A model generated the notes under the pieces. The model saw only the letters and a program-made list of their open reading frames with translations, did no database searches and was not told where the DNA came from. 64,000 bases of DNA from Pocillopora verrucosa. Lineage: Eukaryota; Cnidaria; Anthozoa; Scleractinia; Pocilloporidae. How positions within the stretch are numbered: the first letter of the stretch is position 1; every line of letters starts with the position of its first letter. The stretch spans positions 8,056,744-8,120,743 of the forward strand of contig NC_089324.1 of assembly GCF_036669915.1 (NCBI RefSeq), in the 5' to 3' direction. Below are positions 15,617 to 44,353 of this stretch, one piece after another. A program made the position numbers and the translations under genes.

Positions 15617-16894
15617 ATGGCTGAAATTCAGTGCGTTGTTTTCACGACCTTGCTGCTTTTGAGTGCACTCACCTGCGTTTCAGGTAAAATAGGAAAATGT
15701 GAGAAGATCAAAATACCATTGTGCCAAGGCATTGGCTACAACTTCACTTCCATGCCAAACATGTTCAACCACGACACGCAGGAAGAGGCAGCGCTTGAAG
15801 TTCATCAATTTTGGCCATTTGTAGAGATCAAGTGTTCGGCGGACCTGAAGCTCTTCCTCTGTTCCATGTTTGCTCCAAACTGCCAGGCAAACGTCAAAAA
15901 AAGAGTTCCACCATGTCGTTCGATTTGTGAAAGGGCAAGAGATGGTTGTGCACGTTTAATGCGTCAGTATGGCTTTTCTTGGCCCAAACGCATGAGATGC
16001 AAAACGTTTCCTGAACACGGTGGCGATGAGCCGTGCATGGAAGGAAACGGAATTGTAGCGAACGGAACGTCAACGACACCTCATCCTTTAGAGCCTGTTC
16101 CTCTAAAGAAAACAACCCCATTTAAGAAATGTGAGAAGATCAAAGTACCTTTGTGTCAGGGCATCGGCTACAACTTCACCTACATGCCAAACATGTTCAA
16201 CCACGACACACAGGAAGAGGCGGCGCTTGAAGTTCACCAATTCTGGCCGCTAGTCGAGATCAAGTGTTCGGCAGACCTGAAGCTCTTTCTGTGCTCCATT
16301 TATACTCCTATATGTCAGCCGAACTATAGGAAAGAAATTCCCCCATGTCGATCGCTTTGCCAGAAAGCAAGGGAAGGTTGTGCCCCTCTTATGCGCCAGT
16401 ACGGCTTTTCGTGGCCCAAGCGAATGAGATGCGAAAATTTTCCGAAACTCGGCCAAAAGATATGCATAGGACCAAACAGAAATTCAGCTAAAGGATCCGT
16501 AACGACACCTTTACCTTCAGTCACTGTAAAGAAATGTAGAAGGATAAAAATACCTTTCTGCCAAGGTATTGGCTACAACCGTACCTCACTACCAAAGATC
16601 AAGGACGAAGATGCCGTCTATTTCCAACAGCTCAGGCCACTATTTGGATGCAAGTGTTCTCCAAATCTGAAGCTCTTTCTTTGCTCTATGTACGCTCCTG
16701 AATGCCGACCGAATGTCACAGACCCACTTCCTCCTTGTCGCTCGACTTGCAAACAAGCGAAGAGAGGTTGTGCTCCTTTCATGCGCTTGCATCACGTTCG
16801 TTGGCCCAAGAGATTGAGATGCAAAAATTTTCCAAAAGCTGGAGGCAAGAAGTCGTGCATAGACCCGAACGGGATTGTACATAAGGGTGCATAA
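15617..16894 (+). CDS. Secreted triple Frizzled-CRD protein, copy A
   Basis: Single-exon gene, 425 residues. Residues 1-23 form a signal peptide (core TTLLLLSAL). Three Frizzled-type cysteine-rich domains follow, at about 28-140, 172-283 and 307-414. Each has the ten-cysteine pattern; in CRD1 these are C28, 36, 73, 82, 89, 100, 104, 111, 128 and 140. Typical signatures are GIGYNFTSMPNMF, EEAALEVHQFWP, LKLFLCSMFAP, PPCRSICERARDGC and WPKRMRC. CRD3 is shorter before its third cysteine and carries an extra cysteine, C345, where B and C have Gly. N-glycosylation sequons occur at N42, 149, 186, 321 and 366. Thr/Pro-rich linkers join the domains. There is no seven-helix domain (so not a receptor) and no netrin domain (unlike sFRPs). 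The likely role is extracellular binding of Wnt or another lipidated ligand, by family inference only. Confidence 0.9.
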   Translation: MAEIQCVVFTTLLLLSALTCVSGKIGKCEKIKIPLCQGIGYNFTSMPNMFNHDTQEEAALEVHQFWPFVEIKCSADLKLFLCSMFAPNCQANVKKRVPPCRSICERARDGCARLMRQYGFSWPKRMRCKTFPEHGGDEPCMEGNGIVANGTSTTPHPLEPVPLKKTTPFKKCEKIKVPLCQGIGYNFTYMPNMFNHDTQEEAALEVHQFWPLVEIKCSADLKLFLCSIYTPICQPNYRKEIPPCRSLCQKAREGCAPLMRQYGFSWPKRMRCENFPKLGQKICIGPNRNSAKGSVTTPLPSVTVKKCRRIKIPFCQGIGYNRTSLPKIKDEDAVYFQQLRPLFGCKCSPNLKLFLCSMYAPECRPNVTDPLPPCRSTCKQAKRGCAPFMRLHHVRWPKRLRCKNFPKAGGKKSCIDPNGIVHKGA

Positions 16895-18530
16895 ACAATA
16901 CCTCCGCGACAACATCTGCAGCCACTACCAAACACAGCGGAGAACCAAAAAGACTTACTTTTAAACCGCAAAACTTGGGTGCCATTTTCTAATATTGGCC
17001 GTCATTTATATCATCAGTCATATCTCGTCATATATTGCGTTCGATTTGTTATTTGAAAAAACAAGCCATACAGTAATGATGACGTGGATTACCGAAAGCT
17101 GGCGATTTCGAATCTTAAATTTCATAAGCAGTTTTAAGCCTTATTTGAACTTTAAAATTGATCTTTCAAGTTTACTTCAACTCTTCTTCTATTTCCGAGA
17201 AAGATGTGCGCTCTTTTAGTCTAGCGGAGAAAAGTAAATAAATATTAATTTGTTATTGAGGTCAAAGTAATAGTTATATGAAATATAATTTTCAAATGTG
17301 ATGGGCAGGTTGTCTTGTAAAGATCCTTTCCAAGTCAAGTTTAAATTACTCTATAAAAAACAAAAATATCAGTAATCTTTGAAATAAAAGTTATATTCAT
17401 TGTTTTTCTTGGTCGACCAGTGCGCAAAAATCTAAGTTGTGTAAAATAAGTAAATAAAGTCTTCTCTTGCTGTATCACACCCTCCCTCTCGCATTTTTTG
17501 AATTCTTAATAGAAGTGTTTTTTGTTGCCATAGCAGTTGATAACAGGTGCTTTTGTTGATTCACAACAATCACTCTTGTCTAGGGCGGTTTAGCACTAAT
17601 CTTCATGTGTTCGTAAACCCTTCGGTAGACATCATATCCTTGACCCAATGCGGTGGCCCATTTGAACATATCGTGCACAAGGTATGGCTTGAGCTAAGGT
17701 GCCAACTGAAAGTCGTTGTTTGCTACCTCGTGTTGATTAATTCAGCTTTGCTAAGTCTTCTCGCAATCAAAGAATATTCATTGTTCTCTTGAAAATAGCG
17801 TCATAATGTCAACGAAACGTCAACTTTTTGGTAAACTTTCTTCTTTTGTATCTCCAAATTTAAGTTTGTATTCTGGCATTTTCGCCGTTCCCCTGTTAAA
17901 TAAGGCTATTGTGTTTGCGCTTGAGTTGACCCTTAAATTCCAATGATCTAATTCTCCCTGACTGCTACGCATTTCCTTGCAGAATAGTCACGAGAATCTG
18001 GTGTTAAATCAGGATAAAAATCTCTACCTGATAAGTTTGAGTATTCTCATTACCTGTTTGTTAAATAATGTATGAGTGTTATAGTGAGAAGTTACATGTT
18101 AATCCGGCATTACTGGGAGTTAAAGTATGAAGCTGAATGAGTGAAGCAAAATGGCCTGGTTACTAACTTGATCTACACGTTAAGAAGTATTTTTCACATC
18201 TTCTTAGCTGCTTCTAATTAAATCCGTGTAATGATACAGGACTCTTCCAAACACACCTTCCGTGAACTGGGTACATCTTGTGCAAATGCTTGTCCAAGTA
18301 AACAAATAAACGCCTGAGTTGAATTTAATTCCCCTAATTTCTATTTTCATCACTATTAATATTATTATCGAACACTATCTCTGATTTCAATATAATTTAC
18401 TTTTCTTTCTTTTTACTTTGGCTTTGAAGACCGGGAAGAAAATATTTTTGTAGCAATATATCCGTTTGGAATAAAACCAATAAAAATAAGAGCTCGTGTT
18501 TATTCCAAACATTGACAGAGAAGAGTTATC
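16895..18530. other. 3' flank of CRD copy A
   Basis: Noncoding. Candidate polyadenylation signals AATAAA lie at 17,237-17,242 and 17,453-17,458; both are recognisable in B and C. A frame at 17,547-17,792 is not preserved in C and is unlikely to be coding. Confidence 0.5.
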
Positions 18531-18661
18531 AGGAGGTTAAAAAAAAGAACAAAAGTTATGTTCATTCAGAAATAGTGTTTGATCTGCGACACCCTGAAGG
18601 ACTGGACATTATTTCAGCTAAAGTTAGCGAGCCTCTTTTCTTGCCTTTATATGATATTTAA
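18531..18661 (+). pseudogene. Truncated remnant of an unrecognised terminal exon, unit A
   Basis: It keeps the last 131 nt of the open stretch found complete at 41,539-41,812. It encodes KKKNKSYVHSEIVFDL and then RHPEGLDIISAKVS, ending PLYDI and stop. The upstream half is deleted here, together with about 215 bp that B and C retain. No indel separates A from B or C within the shared part. Confidence 0.5.
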
Positions 18662-20759
18662 AACACAATCTTTTAGATCCAGAGTTGGGTGACAAAGTTC
18701 AAACCGCATCATTTTTGCAGTGCCTTGCCTCTCATAAAATAACTAATGGAGTTCTCTTATTTTCTCCGTTGAAAGTTTAATCTAAAAAGAGCGGAGTGAA
18801 GTTATTGAAATAACCTCTTCTTTGTGTCTTCGTTGTCGTGATTAAGAATTTACGAAAAAGAAATAGTCCCTCCTCTGCAGTTGTTTTTTATTTTTTTGTT
18901 AGGCTTATTGTTTTGTTGTTGTTGTGGTTGTTTGAGGAATGATATGGTTAATTCCATTTCTTCGATGTTAACCTGACTAAGAAAGCTAGGAACCATCTGG
19001 TTAAAGGTTGAGGACTGAATCAGAACACAAACGTTACAAATTAATTATTCTGTCTTGCGTGTGATTTACAAGCATTACCACATGCACTTGGCACCTGCAT
19101 TTGCGTGTTTAAGCATGTAATTTGAGGCCTTTTTAACGCGCAAAGCTCAATTTGCTGAGATGACACTGACAAGATTTACTTGCCAAGTGCACATCTGCTA
19201 ACGGATATTCTACAGTGATGTCATTCCATGTGGCGGCTTGTAGGAGCACACGACACGCATTTTTTTCATTTTTTTTCTCAGTTTGATATTTTTAAAGTTC
19301 TGTTTTAACCTTCAAACCGGGCTGGATCTCTTTCAAATCTTTTCTTCCCTCTAAGAAGAGCTCTTTTAACATCAAAGTTGTCGCGAAGACTGGGAACTAG
19401 TAAAACTCGTTTGGCTGTCATTTCGTCATTTCGTCTGGAGTTGGCTATTTTGCGATACGCCTAGCGACTCCGTGGCAAAGACATAATTATGTGGGTTCTA
19501 CAGCGTGTCACAACTTACAATAACATAAAATCACACTATAAAATCCTTTGATGTACTAGCAGCTCAGAGGCTGAAGAGACGTTTTCCATGGATGGTAACG
19601 CTTATTTAGAACTGACTTCAGCTAGTAATTTTATAAGTCCGCGAGAGGTCAACATTAGAATCCACATAACTTGCCTTAATCTGCTGTTCAGTTCACTATT
19701 TGTGTTTTGAGAATCCATTGTATTGGCCATTATATGACGGCTAACTATTAATTTCTTTCTGTTAAAGTTAGAAGAAAAATTTAACGGTTAACCTTTTTAA
19801 ACAGTAACGGATAAAATTCGACAATTTTTACACCTAATTTGCTAAATTATTTTGCCGTCTTAAGGCAAAATAACTGTTAATCTCATTTTTTTCAAATTTA
19901 AAACAGCTTTGGTTTGCGCGCGCCGATCTTCACGTGCGCTTAAAATAATGCAGAAGTTCGGGACACGAATTTATCCTGAGTTCAATAAAATCTCGAATTC
20001 GTGTTAGGAACGACTATACAACGGGCAAAAAATGTTCTACGTCTAAATCAACAAGTCTCTTTCGTCAAATTGGCATGGTGGACACTCGAATAAGTTTCGC
20101 TCATGAAAAGATTAACGTTTCACTCGGGTCTCATTTTCTTACTGTTGCTAATAATCTGTTCTTGTACTGTTTGTTTATTATGCAGTTTTCCAGCCTATCC
20201 ATAACCTTGTTTAACTTCCTTATCTCGAAGCGTCATTTCTAAAATTTCCATTTCAAAGATATGTCATTTCAATTCTCTTTCACCTGCTGGTCAAAGAAGC
20301 TTTCTCATTTATTAATTTTGGCCATTTTACAGCTAACAATTGATTTCTTTGCGTTAAAGTTAGTAGAAGAAAATTTCTCGGTTAACTATTTTCACTGCGA
20401 ACGGATACAATTTAACAATTTTTTAGCCTAACGGCTTAATTTTTTTTCTGTTTTACGGCTAATGGTTAACCTCGTTGAGATCCTCTAGTGCTGAGGTTGA
20501 AAAACTTTCCTGTGGCGAAAAGGTTACGACATTAGAAAAAGAAAGAAGCAGAAAGATATCACGCTCGTTAACTTGAATATAACCCTTAAGTTAATGCCAA
20601 TAATTACAAAATAACCAGGGAAGCAGAATAAGTTTTGTAGAGTTTTAAATATCCCCATCCAGAGCTATCATAGAGCTTAGATCTACTGGCCTGAGTGCAG
20701 CCGTCTCTTCCACCGACACATCGGGTAGCGGGAGCAGAGCACAGGCCTAACCTCTCTTA
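18662..20759. other. Noncoding tail of unit A
   Basis: No gene is seen. It holds two related repeat copies (see 19,712-19,890 and 20,322-20,480) and ends at the unit junction, where GGGAGCAGAGCACAGGCC runs into the PCMT1-intron-derived start of unit B. Confidence 0.6.
19712..20480 (+). repeat. Two-copy internal repeat with TAACGG motifs
   Basis: Copy 1 (about 19,712-19,890) and copy 2 (about 20,322-20,480) share the order GGCCATT...GGCTAAC, ATTTCTTT, GTTAAAGTTAG, AATTT, GGTTAAC, ACGGATA and then a TAACGGC/TTACGGC end. They are about 600 bp apart and imperfect. The same pair recurs in unit B (about 30,028-30,180 and 30,510-30,670) and unit C (about 43,251-43,400 and 43,850-43,995). It is probably an old interspersed repeat that inserted twice. 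Confidence 0.5.
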
Positions 20760-21281
20760 ATCAAAACCTCAAACTAAATAACTTGAGATAAGCTATCAAC
20801 AGCCTGAATTTGAACATTTGAAAGACTGTTTAATTGGACTATCAACTGTAATGTTCTATTTACTGACAGTTTTTTTCTTCCATAAATGCTCTTACAGTTT
20901 GATTTATCACTGGCATAGTAGTAGGAAGTTCAGTTTTGTCTGTAATGATTCAATATCATTCCAAAATGATCAGCAATCATCATGGCTTTGTTTCAAATTT
21001 TGCTTCCTTTGATTTCTGAGTGATCAATAATAACACATATGTAAGAACAATGATCAGAAATTTATGCAGTTTTGTGAAAAAGGTGTATAGATAGTCATGA
21101 CCAACAAATGAGATAGCTACTTCTTGGGTATCTAGTGTTTCTAAATCAACTGATAGTTACCAGCCAGACAAAATCTGGAGCTAGATTCGGTTACCGATAT
21201 TTTTACTTACTGCAAGTTACATGTAATGTTGTTACAGCATGTGTATGCAGTACAACAACTTGAGGGTTATCTCAAAGAGGG
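20760..21281 (+). pseudogene. PCMT1 5' scrap in unit B
   Basis: It contains PCMT1 intron 3 sequence, the intact acceptor GTTGTTACAG, and only the first 44 nt of exon 4 (21,238-21,281, encoding HVYAVQQLEGYLKE). The homology then stops abruptly and jumps to sequence that in unit C lies downstream of PCMT1. It is not functional. Confidence 0.85.
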
Positions 21282-21509
21282 TGTATGAATGCATTCATAT
21301 CATACAGGAAACAGAAAAAAAGTTCATATTCACGACAGGTGTTCTGCTTCTTCGCATAATGATGAAATTAACAAATAGATTCCATGTTGCTATGCGTATG
21401 CGCAGTAATAAATAACAAACGATGTCAAAATGTGGTTAGACCAATTATTATTTATTATTAAAGAAGGAAAATCTTGTTGATGGTGACGTGATCTATGCGT
21501 CCGTCCTCC

Positions 21510-22250
21510 TAGAGATCATAAGAAAGAACCAAGCGAAATTGTTCGGCGAACCTGAAGCTCTTTCTCTGTTTTCATGTATTCCCCTACCTGCCAGCCAAAC
21601 GTCTAAAAAGAAGTTCCACCACGTTGGTCGATTTTTGAACGGGCAAGAGATGGTTGTGCACCTCTTATGCGTCAGCATGGCTTTTCGTGGCCCAAACGCA
21701 TGAGATGCAAATCGTTTCCTGAACTCGTCGGTGATAAGCCGTGCATGGAAGGAAACGGAATTGTAGCGAATGGAACCTCAATGACACCTCATTCCTCAGT
21801 GCCTGTTCATCCAACGGAAATAACCCCAGTTAGGAAATGTGAGAGGATGACAGGTGGCTGTCCTTTCAACGAATAAAACCGCAGAAAAGAAATGTGAAAG
21901 GATGAAAATGCCTTTGTGTGAAGATGTTGGCTACAACTTCACTTACATGTCAAACATGACGTAAAAAGAGGCAGCGCTTGAAGCTTGTCAATTCCTTCCG
22001 CCCATCAGCAACCAGTGCTCCCCAGTCCTGAGGCTCTTTCTCTGCTCCATTTGTGCTCCCACCTGTCAACCAAATGTCACGGACCAAATTTCTCCTTGCC
22101 ACTCCCTTTTTACTCAAGGGAAAAGGGGCTGTGCCCCTGTTATGTGCCAGTATGGCTTTCGATGGCCCAAAACGATGAGATGCAGACATTTTCCCAAAGC
22201 TAACGGCAACAGACTACGCGTAGATCGGAACGCAATGGTACGTAATAGTG
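21510..22250 (+). pseudogene. Frizzled-CRD pseudogene, unit B
   Basis: Orthologous to the unit A pseudogene. The CRD1 tail is still open at 21,667-21,876 (MRQHGFSWPKRMRC, then GDKPCMEGNGIVANG and a Pro/Thr linker), followed by a stop at GAATAAAACC. The CRD2 part is recognisable (CTCTTTCTCTGCTCCATTTG, CGATGGCCCAAAACGATGAG) but frameshifted, with TGACGTAA in the same place as in A and C. CRD3 and the signal peptide are absent. Confidence 0.8.
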
Positions 22251-25200
22251 CATTGACAATAACTCGACAGCAAGAAATTCCCAAACACACCAGCCTCGTG
22301 GAAAAATTGTGAAGAATGGTATTTCATCTTGATTGCTATCACTTCCAGTTTTGGAGGTTGAGTTACAGTCAAAATTCATTTTCCAATGTGGCTATGTGCG
22401 GTCATACCAATAATAGCGCATGTTTCTTTTTGAAATATTTTTGATTGGCATCTTTGGGAAACTAGTCAGCATAATGAATAGTATAATTTTATGAAGTAGA
22501 GTCATATATTGCGAAAATTTCTTCGTGAGCAGTCGTAAGTATTCGTCGGTAGTCGAAGTATTGTAAACGTATTGAAAGCAAAAGATTTAATTGTAAGTAA
22601 TAGTAGTTATAGGCTGTCCACCTGATTGTATTTGCAACATACAGTGAGTAGTTTTATTATTCTTGTGTTTTCTGAGTAAAAAATGTAATTATTAAAGAGA
22701 TTTCATGTTTCCAAGGGTCTGTCTAATAATAAGTCACAGATGACGTCAAATTGTGGTGAGAACAAGACAGTGGCAAAAGAGGCACAGCTGAGTGCGTCGC
22801 TTCTACAGACCAAACGCATATGGAACACAAAGAGATATCTTCGTCAAACACAACACTGCCGATCAGATTAACAAAAAAATCACGTTTTGATAAAATAAGA
22901 GTAAAAAAAAAGACTAATAGTATTTAGTGTCAAATTAGAATTTAGCTATGTCAGCATATTGACATCCGAAGTATAATTTTGTTTGACTTACGGGTGAATG
23001 GTGAATCGACTATTGCAGATAAACTGACAGTAAACTAACTCCTTTGAAAAAGACGTACCACCCGGTTTTTTCAAACAAACCAAAACTAATTAAAAGCTGA
23101 AGTCAATGTGTTTATTTTCCTTGTCTTCCGCTGCAATTCCAATATTCAAATGGTCCTTTACTAAATAATTTAGGCAAGAAATTTTCGAAAGAGGAGCATC
23201 CGGGAAGTTTGTTATTATTTCACAAAATATGTAGAAAGAGGGTAGGATTTAGAGCGTATTTGTTTTGAATTGGCTTCAATCTTTCATTTAAGTGCTATCA
23301 AATTAATAGAATGGGAAATGGATTAAATTTTGAGCTCGGTAATGAATTAGAGAAATATATTTTTGGTCACGTCACGAGCATGGGACACAGGAAAATTTAC
23401 GATTCCCTCTCGAGGAATGGAATATCAGACCTCCTTGCTCTAGCACTAAGCCACTAGCTCACCACAACGAGTCTCGAAGGATTCACATTGAGGTACGCAA
23501 TAAGGATCCGCAAATTCATTTTAAACAACTGCAGAAAGTACACGAGAGAGCGTGACCACAGCTTTTACTTGTAAATTTGATATACATGTGAAATACACGA
23601 GAAAAGCGTTTGAGAAGCATGTCAAAAGTATGGTCCAATGCACACAGTGTTTCCTCTATATTTTGTTTAGTTCTTGAGCCTGCGTGCGAAAAACGTGTTC
23701 TCACACTTCAGAGCCTTGCACGTTTTAGAGGCTTGACGATGATTTGTGATTGAGCCTGAACAAGCTGGAATTTTAACCTTGGGCCTTTGATCACCCGCGT
23801 AAATATGATTTCCTTTTTAAGAAAAAATAAAACCCAAACCGCCTTTGATTAAGGTCGCATCGGAAACACCAAAAATTTGATAAACGCTACGGTGTCACAG
23901 CGAATTAATACGGCATCTGCATGAAACAACCTATCTGTTTCACTCTCAGAAATGAATTACAGAAATTTTTTTTAACAAAAACTGGAATACTTACCAAAAA
24001 TCATGTAGAAAAGATATGCTTATAACATACTTTAACTTTACTTTAATCTTTAATTGCAATTAAATTGAATCTTAAGGTTATGTCTCTGAGAGGTATAATT
24101 ACCGTATTAACTCCAATAAACGTTCCGGCATTTGATGTTGTCTTGGCTTTTTTTTTTTTTGCGTTTCCGATGCGGTGTTTAATCAATGGCAGCGATTATG
24201 CCAAGATCTTCTTTGTTAAGTCTCTGACATCAATTACAGAGGATCATCTACAAATATATTTCAGAACCGCAGCATGTTTAAAGCTCCAGTAGCTCCCATT
24301 TTGAAGATTCGTTTGAAGGGAGTTGAAGTTAAATGCATTGTAATGAGCCCGTAATTTTTTGTTGCTGTCGTTTTAATTTTTTTAGTCTTTGTTTTTGCCT
24401 ATTTTGGTTTTATTGTTTGTCTTCTTTTATTGTTCTTTTTATCCTGAATAAACGTCGCTTTCTTTCGACTGAGTGAAATTCTCATTTGAGGGCGGTGTAT
24501 CCCTAAGTGGTGTAGAAAGGTTTTCATTTGCTGAAGATCCAAATGTTAATCTCCTTCTAAATTTTCAAGTACTACAACATTTATATCCGCTTATGTTGCT
24601 TAGAAAGCTATTGAATCAGACGTAGCGCTATCCCCCGAAGTTTTAGGTATTGTCAATACAAGGCAAGACCATCAAGATGGATGAAGAGTCCTTGAAAATG
24701 TTGATTAAGTACATGAATGTCTCTTAAGTCCCTGCTTGAGTAGAAGAAATCCTTCACTTAAAATTCATCAGCCCACTTATTTTGCTTTTTTTTTCTGTCC
24801 TTGAAAATGTTTTTAAAACATAGCTTGACAAGGGCAACGATGAAAACAAAGAAGGTAGACTTTTTAGGCGACGAGCCTCTTATGCAGGTGATGATCATCT
24901 TCCACCTGTAATCCTTTCAGCTCACGCAATTTTCTCTGTATCCTGGTGTAACTTGATAGTAAAATAATTTACATGCCGTGTCCACTTCAGTTTTCTTGAA
25001 AAGCAAAAAACTTCCTAGCTCTGTATGGGCCTCTTTCGTTCCACGAAAATGTAAAAAAAAAAAACCGGAGGGTAAAAAGAGTCATTCTCTACTGTAAAGC
25101 CCACATCAGTCTAAGTTATATTTTTAGTACCCACTTTCGATGAATGAATAAAAATGTTTAGTATCAAAGAACATAACGTTTCCCGTTAGATTAGAGTATA

Positions 25201-25490
25201 CACAAAAGAACCGGAACAGATGATTTCCTATTCAAGAATTGGCTAACCAATTTCCTTCGCTTTTTCCTCCTTTTAAATGCCATCGGGGTAGAACTTCAGA
25301 TTCTTTAAATGCTTAAACTTTTAAAACTGTCAATATGGGTGTGTGCTAAAAACTTTAAGCTCATGCCGGTCGATTTTGCTTTCATAATTCCACAAACTTT
25401 AGATGCATTTTTCTCGACAAAAAGGTTTTTTACAGACGTTTAGTGGGGTTCTATCTCACTTTAAGGCAAAACTAATCGAAACAAATCGTA
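22251..25490. other. Noncoding 5' region of the unit B CRD gene
   Basis: Aligns to 11,626-15,385 and 34,491-38,320, without the 400-bp block of A. No conserved frame is seen. Confidence 0.6.
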
Positions 25491-25719
25491 GCCAATAAAG
25501 ATTTGCGCAAAGCTATAAAGCTCAGTAATCAAATTCACTATTTTCGGTAAATCTCGTTTAGCTAATCGTATCAGTTGTACAGTCCAGACAAGGTCATTGC
25601 CATTGACTGGTTAACGAAACCTTAAGCTAGGATAAACATTTCATCACCATTTTGACAAGAATTACGTACATAAAGGGCTTGAGTCAGATATCGACAACAC
25701 TCTCGCAATAACCATTGCA
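25491..25719 (+). promoter_or_regulatory. Conserved proximal promoter, unit B CRD gene
   Basis: Near-identical to the unit A region. The TATA-like CATAAAGG is at 25,669-25,676. Sequence further upstream is deleted relative to A and C, so this copy keeps only the proximal part adjoined to more distant DNA. Its expression could differ. Confidence 0.45.
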
Positions 25720-28695: not shown

Positions 28696-28969
28696 TGAAG
28701 AATCAAAATCAACGCTAACAAAGTACATCAGAGATAAGACGACACAAACAGATTGTCATATATTATTTTTAAGACAGACCGGGTGTAGTCAACGATATCT
28801 GAAGAGTCTGGACTCAGAGAGATGGAATAATACATGACAGGAGGTTAAAAAAAAGAACAAAAGTTATGTTCATTCAGAAATAGTGTTTGATCTGCGTCAC
28901 CCTGAAGGACTGGACATTATTTCAGCTAAAGTTAGCGAGCCTCTTCTCTTTCCTTTATATGATATTTAA
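28696..28969 (+). pseudogene. Unrecognised terminal exon, unit B, with one in-frame stop
   Basis: It is 274 nt, exactly the length of the unit C version, with no indels. The frame begins after a CCTACAG acceptor-like site and reads EESKSTLTKYIRDKTTQTD, then RYLKSLDSERWNNT, a TGA, QEVKKKNKSYVHSEIV, and ends PLYDI and stop. A single TGA replaces the Arg codon seen in C. It resembles a recently inactivated exon of a gene I cannot name. Confidence 0.5.
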
Positions 28970-30959
28970 GACACAATCTCTTAGATCCAGAGTTGGGTGA
29001 CAAAGTTCAAACCGCATCATTTTTGCAGTGCCTTGCCTCTCATAAAATAACTAAAGGAGTTCTCTTATTTTCTCCGTTGAAAGTTTAATCTAAAAAAAGC
29101 GGAGTAAAATTATTGAAATAACCTCTTCTTTGTGTCTTCGTTGTCGCAATTAAGAACTTACGAAAAAGAAATAGTCCCTCCTTTACAGTATTTTTTTATT
29201 TGTTTGTTAGGTTGATTTTTTTGTTGTTGTTGTGGTTGCTTGAGGAATGATATGGTTAATTCCATTTCTTCGATGTTAACCTGACTAAGAAAGCTAGGAA
29301 CCATCTGGTTAAAGGTTAAGGACTGAATCAGAACACAAACGTTACAAATTAATTATTCTGTCTTGCGTGTGACTTACAAGCATTACCACATGCACTTGGC
29401 ACCTGCATTTGCGTGTTTTAGCATGTAATTTGAGGCCTTTTTAGCGCGCAAAGCTCAATTTGCTGAGATGAGACTGACAAGATTTACCTGCCAAGTGCAC
29501 ATCTGCTAACGGAAATTCTACAGTGATGTCATTCCATGTGGCGGCTTGTAGGAGCACACGACACGCATTTTTTTCCATTGTTTTTCTCAGTTTGATATTT
29601 TTCAAAGTTCTATTCTAACCTTCAAGTCGAGCTGGATCTCTTTCAAATCTTTTCTTCCCTCTAAGAAGAGCTCTTTTATCATCAAAGTTGTCGCGAAGAC
29701 AGGGAACTAGTAAAATTCGTCTGACTGTCATTTCGTCTGGAGTTGGCTATTTTGCGATAAGTCTAACGACTCCGTGGCAAAGACATAATTATGTAGGTTC
29801 TAGAGCGTGTCACAACTTACAATAACATAAAATCACACTATAAAATCCTTTGATGTACTAGCAGCTCAGAGGCTGAAGAGACGTCTTCCATGGATGGTAA
29901 CGCTTATTTAGAACTGACTTCAGCTAGTAATTTTATAAGTCCGCGAGAGGTCAACATTGGAATCCACATAACTTGCCTCAATCTGCTGTTCAGTTCACTA
30001 TTTGTGTTTTGAGAATCCATTGTATTGGCCATTATATGACGGCTAACTATTAATTTCTTTCTGTTAAAGTTAGAAGAAAAATTTAACGGTTAACCTTTTT
30101 TAACAGTAACGGATAAAATTCGACAATTTTTACACCTAATTTGCTAAATTATTTTACCGTCTTAAGGCGAAATAACTGTTAGTCCCATTTATTTCAAATT
30201 TAAAACAGCTTTGGTTTGCGCGCGCCGATCTTAGCGTGCGCTTAAAATAATGCAGAAGTTCGTGACACGAATTTATCCCGAGCTCACTAAAATCTCGAAT
30301 TCGTGCTAGGAACGACTATACAACGGTCAAAAAATGTTCTACGTCTAAATCAACATGTCTCTTTCATCAAATTGGCATGGTCGACACTCGAATAAGTTTC
30401 GCTCATGATAAGATTAACGTTTCAGTCGGGTCTCATTTTCTTACTGTTGCTAATAATCTGTTCTTGCACTGTTAGTTTATTATGCAGTCTTGTGCAGGCT
30501 TTCTCATTTGTTAATTTTAGCCATTTTACAACTAACGATTGATTTTTTTTCCGCTAAAGTTAGCAGAGGAAAATTTCTCGGCTAACTATTTCCACTACTA
30601 ACGATACAACTTCACGATTTTTTTTGTCTAACGGCTTCGTCGTTTTTTCTGTTTTACGGCTAATGGTTAACCCCGTTGAGATCCTCTAGTGACGAGGTTG
30701 AAAAACTTTCCTGTGGCGAAAAGGTTACGACATTAGGAAAAGAAAGAAGCAGAAAGATATCACGCTCGTTAACTTGAATATAACCCTTAGGTTAATGCCA
30801 ATAATTACCAAATAACCAGGGAACCAAAATAAGTTTTGTAGAGTTTAAATATCCCCATCCAAAGCTACCATAGGAGCTTAGATTCACTGTCCTGAGTGCA
30901 GCCGTCTCTTCCACCGACACATCGGGTAGCGGGAGCAGAGCACAGGCCTAACCTCTCTT
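28970..30959. other. Noncoding tail of unit B
   Basis: Parallel to the tail of unit A, with the same TAACGG-type repeat pair and the same end junction. No gene is seen. Confidence 0.6.
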
Positions 30960-31412
30960 AATCAAAACCTCAAACTAAATAATTTGAGATAAGCTATCAA
31001 CAGCCTGAATTTGAACACTTGGAAGACTGTTAAATTGAACTATCAACTGTAATGTTCTATTTACTGATGGTTTTTTTTCTTCCATAAATGCTCTTACAGT
31101 TTGATTTATCACTGGCATAGTAGTAGGAAGTTCAGTTTTGTCTGTAATGATACAAAATGATCAGCAATCATCATGGCTTTGTTTCAAATTTCGCTTCCTT
31201 TGATTTCTGAGTGATCAATAGTAACATATATGTAAGAACAATGATCAGAAATTTATGTAGTTTTGTAAAAAAGGTGTATAGATAGTCATGACCAACAAAT
31301 GAGATAGCTACTTCTTGGGTATCTAGTGTTTCTAAATCAACTGATAGTTACCAGCCAGACAAAATCTGCAGCTAGATTCAGTTACTGCAAGTTACATGTA
31401 ATGTTGTTACAG

Positions 31413-32664
31413 CATGTGTATGCACTACAACAACTTGAGGGTCATCTCAAAGAGGGCGCTTGTGCTTTAGATGTTGGTTCAGGGAGTGGCTATCTCACAG
31501 CTGCTATGGCTTATATGGTGAGTACCAATTAGTATTAACATGCTCATGTATAGTAAGAAATTGAGAATTTACTATTGTCCATCATTTTTATCTATTTGTG
31601 AAACATTAACTCCATTATTATCTGTATCACTGTCATTATTGTATCAGTACTCTAGAACTGTGACTGTGGTAGTAAATTGGCAATAAAGACAACAAGACAA
31701 CTTGGTTTAATCAACTCAGTTAATAATGTAAATTTTCCTCCATGAAGAGGTTCTAAAGCTGACGTGTCGGTGTTGGCCCTAGGTTAGATCTCATTCTTTC
31801 CCATTTTTTAAATAAGTAAATCAACTTTATTTGACAAGAGTATCACTTAACAGTTATTCAACTGAAAAACTAGTGGTCTGAATCCTTTGAAACTTCAGGT
31901 TGGAGAAAGTGGAAAGGTTCATGGAATTGATCATATTGATAAGCTTGTCAAAGATTCTTTGGCTAATATTAAAAGAGGGAAGCCTGAACTTCTTGAAAAG
32001 GGCAGAGTCAAAATTGTCTGTAAGTGTTTCATTTTCTTGCATAAGTGTGGCTGTAGAAAAATTTGTCCAAATCAATTGTTGCTGACGGCTGCATGTCACT
32101 CCAATTGAAAATTGCATTTGTTCCATTTACTGCAGCTGGTGATGGGCGCAAAGGTTATGAACCTGGGCAGCCCTACGATGCAATCCATGTGGGAGCAGCT
32201 GCAGCAGAATTACCGTCTGCTGTGAGTAGAAGATAAACTTAAATCTTAAATTTAACATGAACCCTTCTTTGGAAAATGTGGATATGTGATTTGTATACCA
32301 CATTTACAGTAGTTTGCTTAACCTTTTAACTCCCTTTGTGACCAAGGCAGAATTTTTCTTGCAATATCAATACAATATCAAGCAGACAACTAATGCGCAG
32401 CATTAAATAGCATTCTTTGAAATAGAATAATCTTTTAGTGAATAACATTCATTTATTTTCATATGTATATACATTTTTTACCCCAAGCTTCTAGAGCAGC
32501 TTAAACCAGGAGGTCGTCTTATTTTTCCAGTGGGAGCAGAAGCGCGGAATCAGGTTCTTGAACAGCATGATTTACTTGAGGATGGTCAGATTATGAAGAA
32601 GAATCTGATGGGTGTCATCTATATCCCACTCTGTGATAAAAAAAACACCAGTGGTCAGGTTGTA
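31413..32664 (+). pseudogene. PCMT1: PCMT1 partial duplicate, exons 4-7
   Basis: Exons at 31,413-31,517, 31,899-32,019, 32,136-32,221 and 32,488-32,664 have intact GT/AG sites and the same phases as PCMT1. They keep [32 protein letters not shown] and LKPGGRLIF. The frame is open to the end except for one extra A in an A-run near 32,641 (seven A instead of six), which swaps only the last nine or so residues for TPVVRL-type sequence. Exons 1-3 were not included in the duplication, so no local start exists. It could still be spliced from the upstream PCMT1 exons 1-3, but the simplest view is a truncated pseudogene. Confidence 0.82.
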
Positions 32665-33798
32665 AGCTGTCTTAAACTTTTATGGCTGTTTCTTAAACTG
32701 TTTTGATTTTTGTTCAAAGTGGATTGAATATTTCCTTTTGCATGTATGTGTTCCAATGGACCTACAATCTTATGAAGAATTGAAAGAAATTACTGTTTTC
32801 AGTCACTGAGTTGAATGGGAGTCAGCTGGCATAGATTTGGCTGAAAGGGCCTTAGCCTGTGTTGGTTTGTCAATCAAATATGAAAGTGTATACAGGCAAC
32901 ACTGGGTTACATGAGAGCTGTTTATTCCAGCACAGTTTATATGATCTCTCAATTTGCTCCTCTCTTTTTCTATTTTTAGAGTTCTAAATAAAAGAAATAG
33001 GCTACAAGTGGATTTTGAAGAAAGCCAATAGCATATTTCAGGCTTTAATGCTAGTTTTGTCTGTAACTTGTTACTGTTCAAGCATTCTTATCAATGACAT
33101 AAAATCTTAAACAGAAGCTCTCTTCAATGAAAAGTTCTGCATACTTTAGTATGAAAGGTGAAAAGGAAGAATGAACAATTTCTTCAGATGGTTTAAGCGG
33201 AGGATCTTTTAAATGGAAACAATACTAAAAAGTGTGTTTTTATTACTAAGATATTTGTTATTTGTCTAGTTGTCAAGAGGTAGGTAGACATTATCATTAA
33301 AAGTTCAACAACAGCTTACACTGGTGTACACGCGTTTGAGGGATCATTGTTCATACCTTCACCTGTCAACTGAGACTAACTCCCCCCTCTAATGTCCAAA
33401 GTTGAACCCCATACAGAGTGCTTATTGTGGTTGCTAGTCATGCGCAAAAGATCGTTCACATTGCAGCCGAAGTCACGAAACCAGAACAAAGGTCTTGCGA
33501 TCGATCAAACATATCAGATGGAATATCACACCCCTAATGGTTTCAAAAAAAGAACAGCAGACCATAGATATAATGTATGAATGCATTCATATCATACAGG
33601 AACTAGAGAAAAAGTTCATATTCAAGACAGCCGTTCTGCTTCTTCGCATGATGATGAAATTAACAAATAGATTCCATGTTGCTGTGCGTCTTCGCAGTAA
33701 TAAATAACAAACGATGTCAAAATGTGGTTAGACCAATTATTATATATTAAAGAAGGAAAATCTTGTTGATGGTGACGTGATCTATGCGTCTGTCCTCC
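32665..33798. other. Noncoding between PCMT1 copy and CRD pseudogene, unit C
   Basis: Alignable to 9,732-10,887. No conserved frame is seen. Confidence 0.55.
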
Positions 33799-34490
33799 TA
33801 TAGATCATGAGAAAGAACCAATCAAAATTGTTCGGCGGACCAGAAGCTCTTCCTCTGTTTTCATGTATGCCCTTTACCTGCCAGCCAAACGTCTAAAAAG
33901 AAGCTCCACCACGTTGGCCGATTTGTGAACGGGCAAGAGCTAGGAGATGGTTGTGCATGTGTGCCTCTTATGCGTCAGCATGGCTTTTCGTGGCCCAAAC
34001 GCATGAGATGCATGTCGTTTCCTGAACTCGTCGGTGATAAGCCGTGCATGGAAGGAAACAGAATTGTAGCAAATGGAACCTCAAGGACACCTCATTCCTC
34101 AGTGCCTGTTCTCCCAACGGAAACAACCCAGTTAAGAAATGTGAGAGAGTGACGAGTGGCTGTTCTTTCAACGAATAAAACCGCAGAAAAGAAATGTGAA
34201 AGGATAAAAGTACCTTTGGTGAAGATGTTGGCTACAACTTCACTTTCATGTCAAACATGACGTAAAAAGAAGCAGCGCTTGAAGCTCATTAATTCCTTCC
34301 GTCTATCAGCAACCAGTGCTCCCCAGTCCTGAGGCTCTTTCTCTGCTCCATTTGTGTTCCCACCTGTCAACCAAATGTCACAGACCAAATTTCTCCTTGC
34401 CACTCCCTTTTTACTCAAGGGAAAAGGTGTGCACCTGTTATGTGCCAGTATGGCTTTCGATGGCTAGCTAGCGGCAACAGACTACGCGTA
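33799..34490 (+). pseudogene. Frizzled-CRD pseudogene, unit C
   Basis: Same pseudogene as in A and B. The CRD1 tail is open over 33,925-34,152 (MRQHGFSWPKRMRC and GDKPCMEGN visible), then shifted. It shares the TGACGTAA break with A and B. It is shortened at the 3' end: after GGCTTTCGATGG the sequence jumps to AGCTAGCGGCAACAGACTAC and the terminal CRD2 piece is lost. Confidence 0.8.
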
Positions 34491-37020
34491 ATAATTAAAT
34501 AGATTCCATGTTTCCGAGGTTCTGTCTAATAATAAGTCACAGATAACGAAAAATGACAAAATGACAAAATGTGGTGAGAACAAACAGTGGCAAACGAGGC
34601 ACAGCTAAGCGCGTCGCTCCTACAGATCAAACGCATATGAAATACACAGAGATGTCTTCGTCAAACACAACATTGCCGATCAGATTAACAAAAAATCACG
34701 TTTTGATAAAATAAGAGTAAAAAAAAGACTAATAGTATTCTGTGTCAAATTTGAATTTAGCTATGTCAGCTTACTGATCGATATCCGAAATAGAACTTGT
34801 TTGACTTGCGGGTGAATGGTGAATCGACTATTGCAGATAAACTGACAATAAACTAACTCCTTTGAAAAAGACGTACCACCTAGATTTTTCAAACAAACTA
34901 AAACTAATTAAAAGGTGAGGTCAATGTGATTGTTTTCCTTGTCTTCCCCTGCAATTCCGATATTCAAATGGTCCTTTACTCAGTAATTTTTACGCGAGAA
35001 ATTTTCGAAAGAGGGGAATTTGTTATTATCTCGCTAAATATGTAGAAAAAGGGTAGGATTTAGAGCGTATTTGTTTTCAATTGGCTTCAATCTTTCATTT
35101 AAGTGCTATCACATTAATAGAATGAGAAATGGGGTTAAATTTTGAGCTCGGTAATGAATTAGAGAAATATGTTTTTGGTCACATCACGAGCATGGGAAAC
35201 AGGAGAATTTATGAGTCCCTCTTGAGGAATGGAATCTCAGACCTCCTTGCTCTGGCACTAAGCCACTAGCTCACCATAACGAGTTTCGAAGGATTCACAG
35301 TGAGGTACGCGATAAGGATCCGCAAATTCATTTTAAACAACTGCAGAAAGTACACGAGAGAGCGTGACCTCGCCTTTTACTTGTAAATTTGATATACATG
35401 TGAAATACACCAGAAAAGCGTTTGAGAAGCATGTCAAAAGTATGTTACCATGCACACAGTGTTTCCTCGATTTTTTTGTTTAGTTCTTAAGCCTGCATGC
35501 GAAAAACGTGTTCTCAAACTTCAGAGCCTTGCACGTTTTAGAGGCTTGACAACGATTTGTGATTGAGCCTGAACAAGGCGGAATTTTAAACCTTGGGCCT
35601 TTGATCACCCGCGTAAATATGATTTCCTTTTTAAGAAAAAATAAAAACCAAACCGCCCTTGATTAAGGTCGCATCGGAAACACCAAAAATTTGATAAACG
35701 CTTCGGTGTCACAGCGAATTAATACGGTATCTGCATGAAACAACCATTCTATCTGTTTCACTCTCAGAAATGAATTACAAAAATTTTTTGAATAAAAAAC
35801 TGGAATACTTACCAAAAATTACGTAGAAAAGATATGCTTATAACGTACTTTAACTTTACTTTAATCTTTAATTGCAATTAAATTGAATTCAAAGATTATG
35901 TCTCTGAGATGTATAATTACCGCATTAACTCCACTAAACGTTGCGGCATTTGATAGTGTTTTGATTTTTTTTTTTTGCGTTTCCGATGCGGTGTTTAATC
36001 AATGGCTGCGTTTATGCCAAGATCTTCTCTGATAAGTCTCTGACATCAATTACAGAGGATCACCTACAAATATATTTCAGAACCGCAGCATGTTTAAAGC
36101 TCCAGTAGCTCCCATTTTGAAGATTCGTTTGAAGGGAGTTAAAGTTAAATGCATTGTAATGAGCCCGTAATTTTTTGTTGCTGTCGTTTTAATTTTTTTA
36201 GTCTTTGTTTTTGCCTATTTTGGTTTTATTGTTTGTCTTCTTTTATTGTTCTTTTAATCCTGAATAAACGTCGCTTTCTTTCGACTGAGTGAAATTCTCA
36301 TTTGAGGGCGGTGTATCCCTAAGTGGTGTAGAAAGGTTTTCATTTGCTCAAGATCCAAATGTTAATCTCCTTCTAAATTTTCAAGTACTACAACATTTAT
36401 ATCCACTTATGTTGCTTAGAAAGCTATTGAATCAGACGTAGCGCTATCTCCCGAAGTTTTAGGTATTGTTAATACAAGGCAAGACCATCAAGATGGATGA
36501 AGAGTCCTTGAAAATGTTGATTAAGTACATGAATGTCTCTTAAGTCCCTGCTTGAGTAGAAGAAATCCTTCACTCAAAATTAATCAGCTTACTTATTTTG
36601 TTTTTGTTTACAAGGGCAAAGATGAAAACAGAGAAGGTACACTTTTGACGCGACGAGCCTCTTATGCAGGCGGTGATCATCTTCCACCTGTAATCCTTTC
36701 AGCTCACGCAATTTTCTCTTTATCTTAATGTAACTTGATAGTAAAATTATTTACATGCTGTGTCCACTTCAGTTTTCTTGAAAAGCAAAAAACTTCCTAG
36801 CTCTGTATGGGCCTCTTTCGTATCCACGAAAATGTAAGCCAACTGGAGGGTAAAAAAGAGTTATACTCTAATGTAAAGCCCACATCAGTCTAAGTTATAT
36901 TTTTGGCACTCAGTTTCGATGTATGAATAAAAATGTTTAGTATCAAAGAACATAACTTTTCCCGTTAGATTAGGGTATACACAAAAGAACCGGAACAGAT
37001 GATTTCCTATTCAAGAATTG
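34491..37020. other. Noncoding 5' region of the unit C CRD gene
   Basis: Aligns to the A and B upstream regions. No gene is seen. It ends at the transposon target TTG (37,018-37,020). Confidence 0.6.
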
Positions 37021-37819
37021 GGGCCGGGTCGCACTTGAGCCAATTTTGTTTACTTCCAATTTTTGGCGAGGAAAAAATTGGCAAAAATTTCGCGAGGGCC
37101 AAATTTTGGCGGTGGTCGCATTGGACCAACATGTTTGAGCCAAAACTTCGCTGATTGACATATATGTCATGTCACGATATCTACAGTCAAGAAAACATCT
37201 CGTGCATTGCTTGTGCAAGAATGGATCGTCATATACAGGTGACTATTTTCGCGGCTTTCGGGCTTTTGTTGAATTTTGTGTTTCAGTCTCAACAGAACAA
37301 CGCAGCGTTTTTAGTATTGTTGATGCACTATCAGCTGGCTTTTCAACGGTTAGTGTCTGCTGTTAGAAGACGTAGGGTTCGCTTGAATTGGTGCCGATCC
37401 AGGGTAGGAGTCATTGGCATTTCCAAAAAACTGCCGCTCGTATTCCGCGTTTCCATTGTAAAAACCATAGAAAGAAGGGTCAGATAGACCGGGAAAAAAA
37501 TTATTTTGTCCCGACATCGTACGTGCTAACCTGCACTAGCCGAACAAAGTAATTTTTCCCGCCGTAACTTGATCCAAGTATGTTTGAAGAAAAATGGCAG
37601 CTCAATGGTTAAACAAACAAAATTGTTTGCTTTGCCAAAATTTGGAAGCCTTCGAGGCAGCACTTCGGCTTCTCTGAAGACTGGCGAAAATTTGGCAATC
37701 CGCAAAAAATTGGCGAGTTTTTGAAACTGGGGGTCGCACTTATTTTACGTTACTTGGTGACAGATTTATTACTTATACAAACAAAATTGGCTAAAATTCG
37801 CTCTAGTGCGACCCGGCCC
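37021..37819. mobile_element. 799-bp DNA transposon with 15-bp TIRs, 3-bp TSD
   Basis: The left end is GGGCCGGGTCGCACT and the right end is its exact reverse complement, AGTGCGACCCGGCCC. Looser inverted similarity continues inward (AATTTTGTTT). It is flanked by TTG on both sides (37,018-37,020 and 37,820-37,822). Units A (about 14,870) and B (about 25,245) show the uninterrupted site, AAGAATTGGTTAACC and AAGAATTGGCTAACC, so this is a post-duplication insertion. A 3-bp duplication and GGG-type ends fit PIF/Harbinger or CACTA-like non-autonomous elements. One frame (37,155-37,487) contains an Arg-rich run (AVRRRRVRLNW) vaguely like Harbinger transposase N-termini, but this is weak and no catalytic domain is present. 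Confidence 0.85.
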
Positions 37820-37822
37820 TTG

Positions 37823-38319
37823 GTTAACCTATTTCCTTCGCGAATTCCTCATTTTAAATGCCATCGAGGTAGAATTTCACATTCTTTAAATGCTTAAACT
37901 TTTAAAACTGTCACTATGGGAGTGTGTTAAAAACTTGAAGCTCATGCCGATCGATTTTGCTTTCATAATCCCACAAACTTTAACTGAAGAATCGAGATCA
38001 ACTCACACCGAGTAAATGAGAAATAGAGCAACAACAATCGTTATTGACTACTGGGACATCAGTCTCGAGCTGATTTTGCTGTTTTGCTCCTGAAAACGTT
38101 TTCGAACTTGGGGAAATGGCAGAGAAAACTTTGCCGGAGATTGATCAAAAGCCATAATGATTAATGGGCGCTAGATCTTTGTTAACATGAAATGATTAAT
38201 CTACAAGAAATTAGGGCTAAACTGATTAAAGTTGCGTTGCACCTTTCTCGACAAAAAGATTTTTTACAGACGTTTGGTGGAGTTCTATTTCACTTTAAGG
38301 CAAAACTAATTGAAACAAA
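37823..38319. other. Noncoding, between the transposon and the CRD promoter
   Basis: Parallel to 14,875-15,385 of unit A, including a segment deleted in unit B. No gene is seen. Confidence 0.5.
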
Positions 38320-38553
38320 TTGTAGCCAATAAAGATTTGCGCAAAGCTATAAAGCTCAGTAATTAAATCCACTATTTTCGGTAAATCTCGTTTAGCTAAT
38401 CGTATCATTTGTACAGTCCAGACAAGGTCATTGCCATTGACTGGTTAACGAAACCTTAAGCTTGGATAAACATTTTATCACGATTTTGACAAGAATTACG
38501 TACATAAAGGGCTTGAGTCAGATATCAACAACACTCTCACAATAACCATTGCA
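38320..38553 (+). promoter_or_regulatory. Conserved proximal promoter, unit C CRD gene
   Basis: Same layout as A and B, with the TATA-like CATAAAGG at 38,503-38,510. The 799-bp transposon lies about 730 bp upstream of the start codon and could affect more distal control elements. Confidence 0.45.
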
Positions 38554-39858
38554 ATGGCTGAAATTCAGTGCGTCGTTTTCACGACCTTGCTGCTTTTGAG
38601 TGCGCTCACCTGCGTTTCTGGTAAAATAGGAAAATGTGAGAAGATCAAAATACCATTGTGCCAAGGCATTGGCTACAACTTCACTTCCATGCCAAACATG
38701 TTCAACCACGACACGCAGGAAGAGGCAGCGCTTGAAGTTCATCAATTTTGGCCGCTAGTAGAGATCAAGTGTTCGGCGGACCTGAAGCTCTTCCTCTGTT
38801 CCATGTTTGCTCCAAACTGCCAGCCAAACGTCAAAAAAAGAGTTCCACCATGTCGTTCGATTTGTGAAAGGGCAAGAGATGGTTGTGCACGTTTAATGCG
38901 TCAGTATGGCTTTTCTTGGCCCAAACGCATGACATGCAAAACGTTTCCTGAACTCGGTGGCGATAAGCCGTGCATGGAAGGAAACGGAATTGTAGCGAAC
39001 GGAACGTCAACGACAGCTCATCCTTTAGAGACTGTTCTTCCAAAGAAAACAACCCCATTTAAGAAATGTGAGAAGATCAAAATACCTTTGTGTCAGGGCA
39101 TCGGCTACAACTTCACCTACATGCCAAACATGTTCAACCACGACACACAGGAAGAAGCGGCGCTTGAAGTTCACCAATTCTGGCCGCTAGTCGAGATCAA
39201 ATGTTCGGCTGACCTGAAGCTCTTCCTGTGCTCCATTTATACTCCTATATGTCAGTGGAACTATGGGAAAGAAATTCCCCCATGTCGATCGCTTTGCCAA
39301 AAAGCAAGGGAAGGTTGTGCGCCTCTTATGCGCCAGTACGGCTTTTCGTGGCCCAAGCGATTGAGATGCGAAAATTTTCCGAAACTCGGCCATAAGATAT
39401 GCATAGGACCAAACGGAAATTCAGCCAAAGGATCCGTAACGACATCTTTACCTTCAGTCGCTGTTCTTCCAACGAAAACTTTGACCGCTCCAAAGAAATG
39501 TAAAAAGATAAAAATACCTTTCTGCCAAGGTATTGGCTACAACCGTACCTCACTACCAAACATCAAGGAGGAAGATGCCGTCTATTTCCAACAGTTCAGG
39601 CCACTATTTGGAGGCAAGTGTTCTCCAAATCTGAAGCTCTTTCTTTGCTCCATGTACGCTCCTGAATGCCGACCGAATGTCACAGACCCACTTCCTCCTT
39701 GTCGCTCGACTTGCAAACAAGCGAAGAGAGGTTGTGCTCCTTTCATGCGCTTGCATCACGTTCGTTGGCCCAAGAGATTGAGATGCAAAAATTTTCCAAA
39801 AGCTGGAGGCAAGAAGTCGTGCATAGACCCGAACGGGATTGTACATAAGGGTGCATAA
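38554..39858 (+). CDS. Secreted triple Frizzled-CRD protein, copy C
   Basis: Single exon, 434 residues: signal peptide 1-23 and three Frizzled-type CRDs with all canonical cysteines. It is nine residues longer than A and B because linker 2 reads VAVLPTKTLTAPKKC where the others go directly from the Ser-Val stretch to KKC. Distinctive changes are CQPNV for CQANV, RMTC for RMRC at the end of CRD1, CQWNYGKEI for CQPNYRKEI in CRD2, and NGNS for NRNS. The final 120 nt or so are identical to copy A, whereas the 5' end follows copy B. Role and location are as for copy A. The linker extension resembles the linker text in the pseudogenes (PTEITPV), so it may be the ancestral state. Confidence 0.9.
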   Translation: MAEIQCVVFTTLLLLSALTCVSGKIGKCEKIKIPLCQGIGYNFTSMPNMFNHDTQEEAALEVHQFWPLVEIKCSADLKLFLCSMFAPNCQPNVKKRVPPCRSICERARDGCARLMRQYGFSWPKRMTCKTFPELGGDKPCMEGNGIVANGTSTTAHPLETVLPKKTTPFKKCEKIKIPLCQGIGYNFTYMPNMFNHDTQEEAALEVHQFWPLVEIKCSADLKLFLCSIYTPICQWNYGKEIPPCRSLCQKAREGCAPLMRQYGFSWPKRLRCENFPKLGHKICIGPNGNSAKGSVTTSLPSVAVLPTKTLTAPKKCKKIKIPFCQGIGYNRTSLPNIKEEDAVYFQQFRPLFGGKCSPNLKLFLCSMYAPECRPNVTDPLPPCRSTCKQAKRGCAPFMRLHHVRWPKRLRCKNFPKAGGKKSCIDPNGIVHKGA

Positions 39859-44242: not shown

Positions 44243-44353
44243 CTCGGGCTTAATTATTACCATCCCGATTTGAGCACTAATAGGTCTTGGTCTTAATAGT
44301 ACAGTGTACGCGTCATCCTTGTAATAAGACAGTTTAATGCCTGTGTAAGTGGA

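Follow-up and report, generated by a model that had tools for sequence, protein, structure and literature searches.

The DNA considered here is a 64,000-nucleotide window of the genome of the coral Pocillopora verrucosa (assembly GCF_036669915.1, contig NC_089324.1, positions 8,056,744 to 8,120,743), in which a 36-kb array (~7988-44253) is made up of three tandem units, each containing a disrupted pseudogene followed by an intact gene (Table 1). Blocks shared between the units are ~87-95% identical in a self-BLAST of the window, and the unit limits given are our reading of the edges of these blocks. Each intact gene (A, B, and C) encodes, in one open reading frame (ORF), a signal-peptide-like N-terminus and three Frizzled-type cysteine-rich domains (CRDs). 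The linker between CRD1 and CRD2 is 31 residues, and gene C has nine additional residues ahead of CRD3, a difference in linker length that is in frame. In all three pseudogenes, similarity to the gene begins at one common point within CRD1, and the CRD1-like remnant is followed by a CRD3-like one, with a short KCER stub in between in pseudogene 2. This arrangement is read here as the remains of an ancestor that originally had three CRDs and lost most of CRD2, the truncation predating the triplication of the unit. When the whole genome (353 Mb, 52 contigs) was searched at the DNA level with gene C and its flanks, a search for which scores are given for the best candidates only, there were ten matches, of which nine fall in the array and the tenth at the CRD of a Frizzled5/8 (Fz5/8)-type receptor.

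The domain content of the three predicted proteins is uniform. Each has three Pfam Fz stretches above the cut-off of 32.1 bits (whole-protein E values of 2.4e-93, 1.4e-94, and 1.1e-95 for A, B, and C), and no other Pfam family is found at E <= 0.001, including the netrin domain (NTR) and the Frizzled seven-transmembrane region (7TM). Ten cysteines are present in every CRD, and CRD3 of gene A carries an eleventh. This additional cysteine (in CRD3 of gene A, 16526-16891) adjoins the third (LFGCKC) and is not present in B and C. An N-glycosylation site lies six residues past the second cysteine in 9/9 CRDs (sequons at residues 42, 186, and 321 or 330), a position named for Frizzled-type CRDs in the relevant part of PMC4669655. 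The proteins are basic (63-65 Lys plus Arg vs 30-31 Asp plus Glu). The N-terminal hydrophobic stretch has a 19-residue Kyte-Doolittle maximum of 2.03 at residue 4, while the part of the protein past residue 30 reaches 1.19-1.24 at most, so that no membrane-length segment is apparent in any of the three; by hydropathy alone, then, the N-terminus is signal-peptide-like and the proteins are predicted to be secreted. Amino acid identity to human FZD8 is 70-73% for CRD1 and CRD2 and 50.5-51.5% for CRD3. A sequence-only reading of this DNA had proposed a locally expanded family of three intact genes, each specifying a signal peptide and three complete ten-cysteine CRDs with no transmembrane, netrin, or enzymatic domain, and the ORFs, Pfam stretches, cysteine positions, hydropathy, and tandem units all agree with it. 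Its check of the Frizzled fold by structure prediction has a partial answer. The best Foldseek match of a CRD3 model (9-row alignment) is the Fz8 CRD 4f0a (E 8.9e-8, template-modeling score 0.52); however, this model is poor (predicted local distance difference test, pLDDT, of 55.3), and the full-length model (3-row alignment, pLDDT 34.8) is unusable. Consequently, the fold is assigned by sequence.

Several observations bear on whether genes A, B, and C are real genes. The ORF is open in 3/3 cases, no ATG is found in the 200 bp upstream of the start in any of the three, and an AATAAA-type signal lies 484-489 bp downstream of the stop in all of them. Neither the coding sequences nor the 300 bp beyond them contain a strict GT[AG]AGT splice donor, weaker splice sites not having been searched. 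The 1.6-kb 3' flank was taken as the neutral yardstick; the 5' flank was set aside because its alignment is bad past ~300 bp, A-C and B-C differing by 18-23% over 1000 bp. Nonsynonymous divergence is 1.4-2.5%, compared with 5.3-8.6% in the 3' flank (Fisher p of 1.3e-7, 1.4e-7, and 4.4e-13 for the three pairs), and the pairwise ratios of nonsynonymous to synonymous divergence (dN/dS) are 0.16 for A-B, 0.50 for A-C, and 0.23 for B-C. Because nonsynonymous divergence is ~3-4 times lower than the divergence of the flank, the copies are probably functional genes. It could be argued instead that they are recent tandem duplicates that are currently without a role and whose decay is still to come, since relatives within the same units have already decayed and the A-C dN/dS is as high as 0.5. 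Given the three open ORFs, the 3-4 fold deficit of nonsynonymous change, and the fact that the length change in the gene C linker is in frame, this seems quite unlikely.

The source of the CRDs was sought among the Fz-domain stretches of the genome, of which 82 are reported at E <= 0.001; genes A to C account for nine of them, the pseudogenes for five, and other loci for 68. Four of the ten frames submitted to Pfam combine a CRD with a Frizzled 7TM in a single open frame. One of these four receptors, for which FZD5 is the best whole-protein match in the Protein Data Bank (PDB), lies at 9.18 Mb on the same contig as the array (C13), 1.1 Mb distant. The second is best matched by FZD7; the third by FZD4 overall and by FZD10 among CRD-only chains; and the fourth falls with human FZD4 in a tree (support 88/87). 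It is the first of these, the Fz5/8-type receptor, that the CRDs of the array resemble. Amino acid identity to its CRD is 92.5-94.3% for CRD2 (94.3% in gene A), 81.1-82.1% for CRD1, and 59.4-60.4% for CRD3 (computed for genes B and C). At the DNA level, CRD2 matches the receptor CRD at 91-92% over ~356 bp, and CRD1 does so at 81-82% over 321 bp. In a PDB search with gene C, the only copy searched, FZD8 chains ranked best and FZD5 next. A tree of 30 CRDs (26 hand-picked from the 82 in the genome, pseudogene CRDs excluded, plus four human ones) positions the CRD2s close to Fz5/8 (branch lengths 0-0.037), with the fork itself unresolved, and groups CRD1 with CRD3 at 94/89, just below the level starred by the tree tool, with a long branch to CRD3. 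Thus, far from being generic, the predicted CRDs of genes A to C descend from the CRD of this Fz5/8 receptor. Relatives of gene C confirmed by tblastn were found neither in viral contigs (nine pattern matches) nor in prokaryote genomes (97 pattern matches), as expected of an animal gene.

Two other identities were considered. The sequence-only reading had allowed that each ORF might be one exon of a larger receptor transcript. This is disfavored by the Pfam results, by the hydropathy and splice-motif evidence, and by tblastn, in which, outside the CRD, none of the four receptor proteins matches the window at an E value better than 0.66. The second identity, a secreted Frizzled-related protein (sFRP), is rejected, given that the three ORFs have no NTR and that the tree places their CRDs outside the clade of NTR-linked CRDs. 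That clade (99/99) contains three CRDs and 0/9 of those in the window. At the corresponding loci, a CRD is followed by an NTR on the same strand within ~1.7-5.1 kb (C3:1305078/1299734, C3:3714111/3711304, and C12:14771375/14773377), and these three are likely to be canonical sFRPs. At least 12 NTR matches are found genome-wide, and none of those 12 is on contig C13.

The sequence-only reading had further suggested a multivalent binder of Wnt or another lipid ligand, and the residues of the lipid groove support this for two of the three domains. In the structure of FZD8 (4F0A), the acyl channel is lined by Q71, F72, P74, I78, M122, Y125, F127, and P130, and W129 lies near the start of the acyl chain, according to the portion of PMC6873803 used here to score these nine positions. 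All nine are kept in CRD2 of A, B, and C, as they are in the Fz5/8 receptor itself, and CRD1 keeps 9/9, 8/9, and 9/9. In CRD3, by comparison, only 5/9, 5/9, and 6/9 are kept, and five residues are deleted before the groove segment. As a control, the other three Frizzled receptors of this genome were scored, and they keep seven, six, and five of the nine. The score of CRD3 is therefore comparable to those of the Fz4- and Fz9/10-like receptors (five and six) and, by itself, is no proof that lipid binding has been lost. CRD1 and CRD2 are expected to bind the lipid of Wnts as Fz5/8 does; CRD3 may not bind it in that way. The idea of three equivalent CRDs is rejected in the case of CRD3, given its 59-60% identity to the receptor, its deletion, and its groove score of 5-6/9, even though this score equals that of some receptors. 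The same groove evidence fits a Wnt carrier or agonist, in which CRD1 and CRD2 would hold the lipids of Wnts so as to solubilize and move them instead of inhibiting them, since sequence cannot tell a trap from a carrier; the relevant discussion in PMC4669655 allows for CRD-only proteins as either antagonists or agonists. However, the near-identity of CRD2 to one particular receptor would favor competition with that receptor, and a carrier is considered unlikely.

The resemblance of CRD2 to the receptor is not spread evenly over the domain. CRD2 is separated from Fz5/8 by a synonymous divergence (dS) of 0.22-0.26 and CRD1 by one of 0.84-0.96, and CRD1 and CRD2 of a single gene differ by 0.78-0.92. 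CRD2 is a mosaic in which codons 1-15 are CRD1-like and codons 16-99 are receptor-like. Sites at which CRD2 agrees with CRD1 against the receptor are concentrated in codons 2-14 (6/8 in A, 6/8 in B, 6/9 in C). Sites at which CRD2 agrees with the receptor against CRD1 number 49, 48, and 45, respectively, and 29/31, 27/29, and 26/28 of those in third positions lie past codon 26. By a maximum-chi-square test, the break falls at nucleotides 42-53 in each gene (permutation p of 1e-4 for A, 1e-4 for B, and 4e-4 for C). For codons 16-99, CRD2 has a dS to the receptor of 0.095-0.137, about the level seen between units (0.075 between the CRD2s of A and B, 0.115 between those of A and C), against 1.0 for CRD1 of gene A. 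In codons 1-15, which contain only ~9 synonymous sites, dS to Fz5/8 is ~1.5 for both CRD2 and CRD1 of gene A. This contrast between the two stretches disfavors simple divergence. The signal for a comparable tract inside CRD1 is weak (p of 0.12, 0.02, and 0.03). From this pattern, we infer gene conversion or unequal exchange between the core of CRD2 and the receptor, although an insertion plus a crossover instead of conversion is a possible alternative.

Among published proteins, the closest kind found is a set of CRD-only genes of Frizzled type, three in Platynereis and one in Aplysia, which are attributed in the part of PMC4669655 that treats them to lineage-specific duplications and are regarded there as possible Wnt modulators. 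Like the products of genes A to C, FzCRD-1, -2, and -3 of Platynereis dumerilii, whose duplication is taken to be recent, have a secretion signal and a Frizzled-like CRD, without an NTR or a membrane domain, and the predicted proteins of the array belong among these secreted CRD-only (FzCRD-type) proteins. In Platynereis, however, a CRD only is described there, and FzCRD-1 groups with sFRP3/4 and may retain a remnant of an NTR. What appears to be new in genes A to C is the presence of three CRDs per chain, the origin from Fz5/8, and the mosaic CRD2, in addition to which the genes are in tandem. With sFRPs they share secretion, a CRD, and presumed Wnt binding, but they have no NTR and their CRDs group apart. 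With the Fz5/8 receptor they share the CRD sequence, nearly identical in CRD2 to that of this animal's own receptor, but they lack the 7TM and have the CRD in triplicate. The secreted Fz4 splice variant of vertebrates, as mentioned in PMC4669655, is likewise a receptor CRD freed as a soluble Wnt regulator; it is a single-CRD splice form of a receptor gene, whereas genes A to C are separate genes. Among the open-access papers examined for three, multiple, or tandem Frizzled domains, no secreted multi-CRD protein was recognized, though such a protein may be described elsewhere.

A further parallel, by analogy only, is CEACAM3, an immune adhesin decoy with unrelated domains. For this protein, it has been suggested in the part of PMC8860441 concerned that gene conversion keeps the decoy's binding domain similar to the receptors that are targeted and so preserves mimicry, the authors adding that conversion does not serve mimicry only. 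A tandem expansion with pseudogenes and a receptor-matched CRD2 resemble that case, and it might be supposed that the copies in the array shield Fz5/8 from CRD-binding microbes or other foreign proteins, or that they bind some ligand other than Wnt. Yet the pairwise dN/dS values give no sign of gene-wide positive selection, no such agent is known, and CRD1 and CRD2 retain the residues of the lipid groove. A decoy for something other than Wnt is considered very unlikely.

In the reading favored here, which is held to be somewhat more probable than the others together, each gene would encode a secreted, membrane-free Wnt trap of Fz5/8 type, in which two CRDs carry the groove and the third has diverged. 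CRD1 and CRD2 would compete outside the cell with Fz5/8 for lipid-modified Wnts, the two groove-bearing CRDs per chain would provide avidity, and Wnt signal would be lowered (or spread) at the sites where Fz5/8 acts. CRD3 would take on another contact, as a spacer, as a site for a different ligand, or, the protein being basic, in matrix binding. The tandem array would increase the dose, and exchange with the receptor would keep the trap matched to the ligands of Fz5/8. We infer both the competition with Fz5/8 and its outcome, be it inhibition or transport. A more elaborate version, which is doubtful, is that of a receptor-decoy pair, in which the middle CRD of the trap would be copied repeatedly from the Fz5/8 gene on the same chromosome, preventing drift in the choice of ligand, and a pre-formed pair of CRD1 and CRD2 would grip Wnt, lipid included, more firmly than the single CRD of a receptor does.

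Several points weigh against the trap or against the exchange that is invoked for it. The A-C dN/dS is 0.5, and the A-C contrast between synonymous and nonsynonymous change is marginal (p 0.048). A test for a low-divergence tract in CRD2 gives p values of 0.007 for A and 0.007 for B, but 0.12 for C; moreover, the mosaic is not tested independently in A, B, and C, because the event that generated it probably predates the triplication. CRD2 is nearer to human FZD8 (70.8-72.6%) than is the receptor (67.9%), and at two positions of the tract the FZD8 residue is found in CRD2 but not in the receptor. Thus, the receptor must have changed once the exchange had taken place, or else the transfer went in the opposite direction. 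We assume that transfer from receptor to trap, with later change in the receptor, is most likely. Finally, the divergence of CRD3 weakens the notion of a simple trivalent Wnt binder, so that the multivalency proposed in the sequence-only reading would hold for CRD1 and CRD2 but not for three equivalent domains, and an agonist or carrier role, unlikely as it is considered, is compatible with the sequence.

Table 1. Features of the array, by position in the window
Feature	Position	Strand	Basis or remark
Tandem unit 1 (pseudogene + gene A)	7988..20754	+	self-BLAST blocks
Tandem unit 2 (pseudogene + gene B)	20755..30955	+	self-BLAST blocks
Tandem unit 3 (pseudogene + gene C)	30956..44253	+	self-BLAST blocks
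Gene A (425 aa), three Fz CRDs behind a signal-peptide-like N-terminus	15617..16894	+	ORF, Pfam, hydropathy
Gene B (425 aa), three Fz CRDs behind a signal-peptide-like N-terminus	25720..26997	+	ORF, Pfam, hydropathy
Gene C (434 aa), three Fz CRDs behind a signal-peptide-like N-terminus	38554..39858	+	ORF, Pfam, hydropathy
CRD1, gene A	15698..16036	+	first to tenth cysteine
CRD2, gene A	16130..16465	+	cysteine positions
CRD3, gene A	16535..16858	+	cysteine positions; groove altered, extra cysteine
CRD1, gene B	25801..26139	+	cysteine positions
CRD2, gene B	26233..26568	+	cysteine positions
CRD3, gene B	26638..26961	+	cysteine positions
CRD1, gene C	38635..38973	+	cysteine positions
CRD2, gene C	39067..39402	+	cysteine positions
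CRD3, gene C	39499..39822	+	cysteine positions
Receptor-like tract, CRD2 of gene A, codons 16-99	16175..16426	+	dS 0.095 to Fz5/8
Receptor-like tract, CRD2 of gene B, codons 16-99	26278..26529	+	dS 0.095 to Fz5/8
Receptor-like tract, CRD2 of gene C, codons 16-99	39112..39363	+	dS 0.137 to Fz5/8
TATAAA, gene A	15411..15416	+	206 bp ahead of ATG; same offset in B and C; consensus match, not promoter proof
Pseudogene 1, disrupted; truncated CRD1-like + CRD3-like remnants	10915..11646	+	self-BLAST, tblastn
Pseudogene 2, disrupted	21537..22273	+	self-BLAST, tblastn
Pseudogene 3, disrupted	33826..34464	+	self-BLAST, tblastn

Other CRD loci in the genome have different layouts. At C5:6356466-6370282, at least ten Fz-domain stretches lie on one strand within 14 kb, mostly in separate short frames, and an AG occurs within ~12 bases ahead of the first cysteine in 8/8 CRD starts among those listed; this locus probably represents one or more multi-exon, multi-CRD genes, in contrast to genes A to C with their single ORFs. 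At C6:25638303-25640116, three CRD-bearing frames on one strand within 1.8 kb may be a second three-CRD gene, with introns. A tandem array at C12:19364550-19384396 has single-CRD frames alternating with longer CRD frames, two of which, when scanned, contain nine LDL-receptor class A stretches and one CRD. Within the window itself, other frames, labeled from a reading of their translations only, are methyltransferase-like (4455-5228, minus strand), rhodopsin-like receptor (45493-46644, plus strand), and Jun-type bZIP (58372-59463, plus strand). One 4-kb block (48001-52000) has an AT skew of +0.363, the remaining 15 blocks ranging from -0.052 to 0.095. Apart from CRDs, at least 74 GFP-family stretches are present, all of those reported being in two clusters on one contig (C1:670362-884433 and C1:28361248-28791301), and many contain stops, often at possible exon edges. 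The best match of one GFP exon is amFP486, a sea anemone protein, in keeping with an anthozoan genome.

If the Wnt trap reading is correct, genes A to C would be a natural counterpart of the engineered Fz-CRD trap, with several CRDs copied from one class of receptor into a soluble protein. They would also carry signs, in their sequence, of exchange between a trap and its receptor, and would offer a test of how a Wnt antagonist can originate without the architecture of an sFRP, as well as of whether gene conversion matches a decoy to its receptor beyond immunity.

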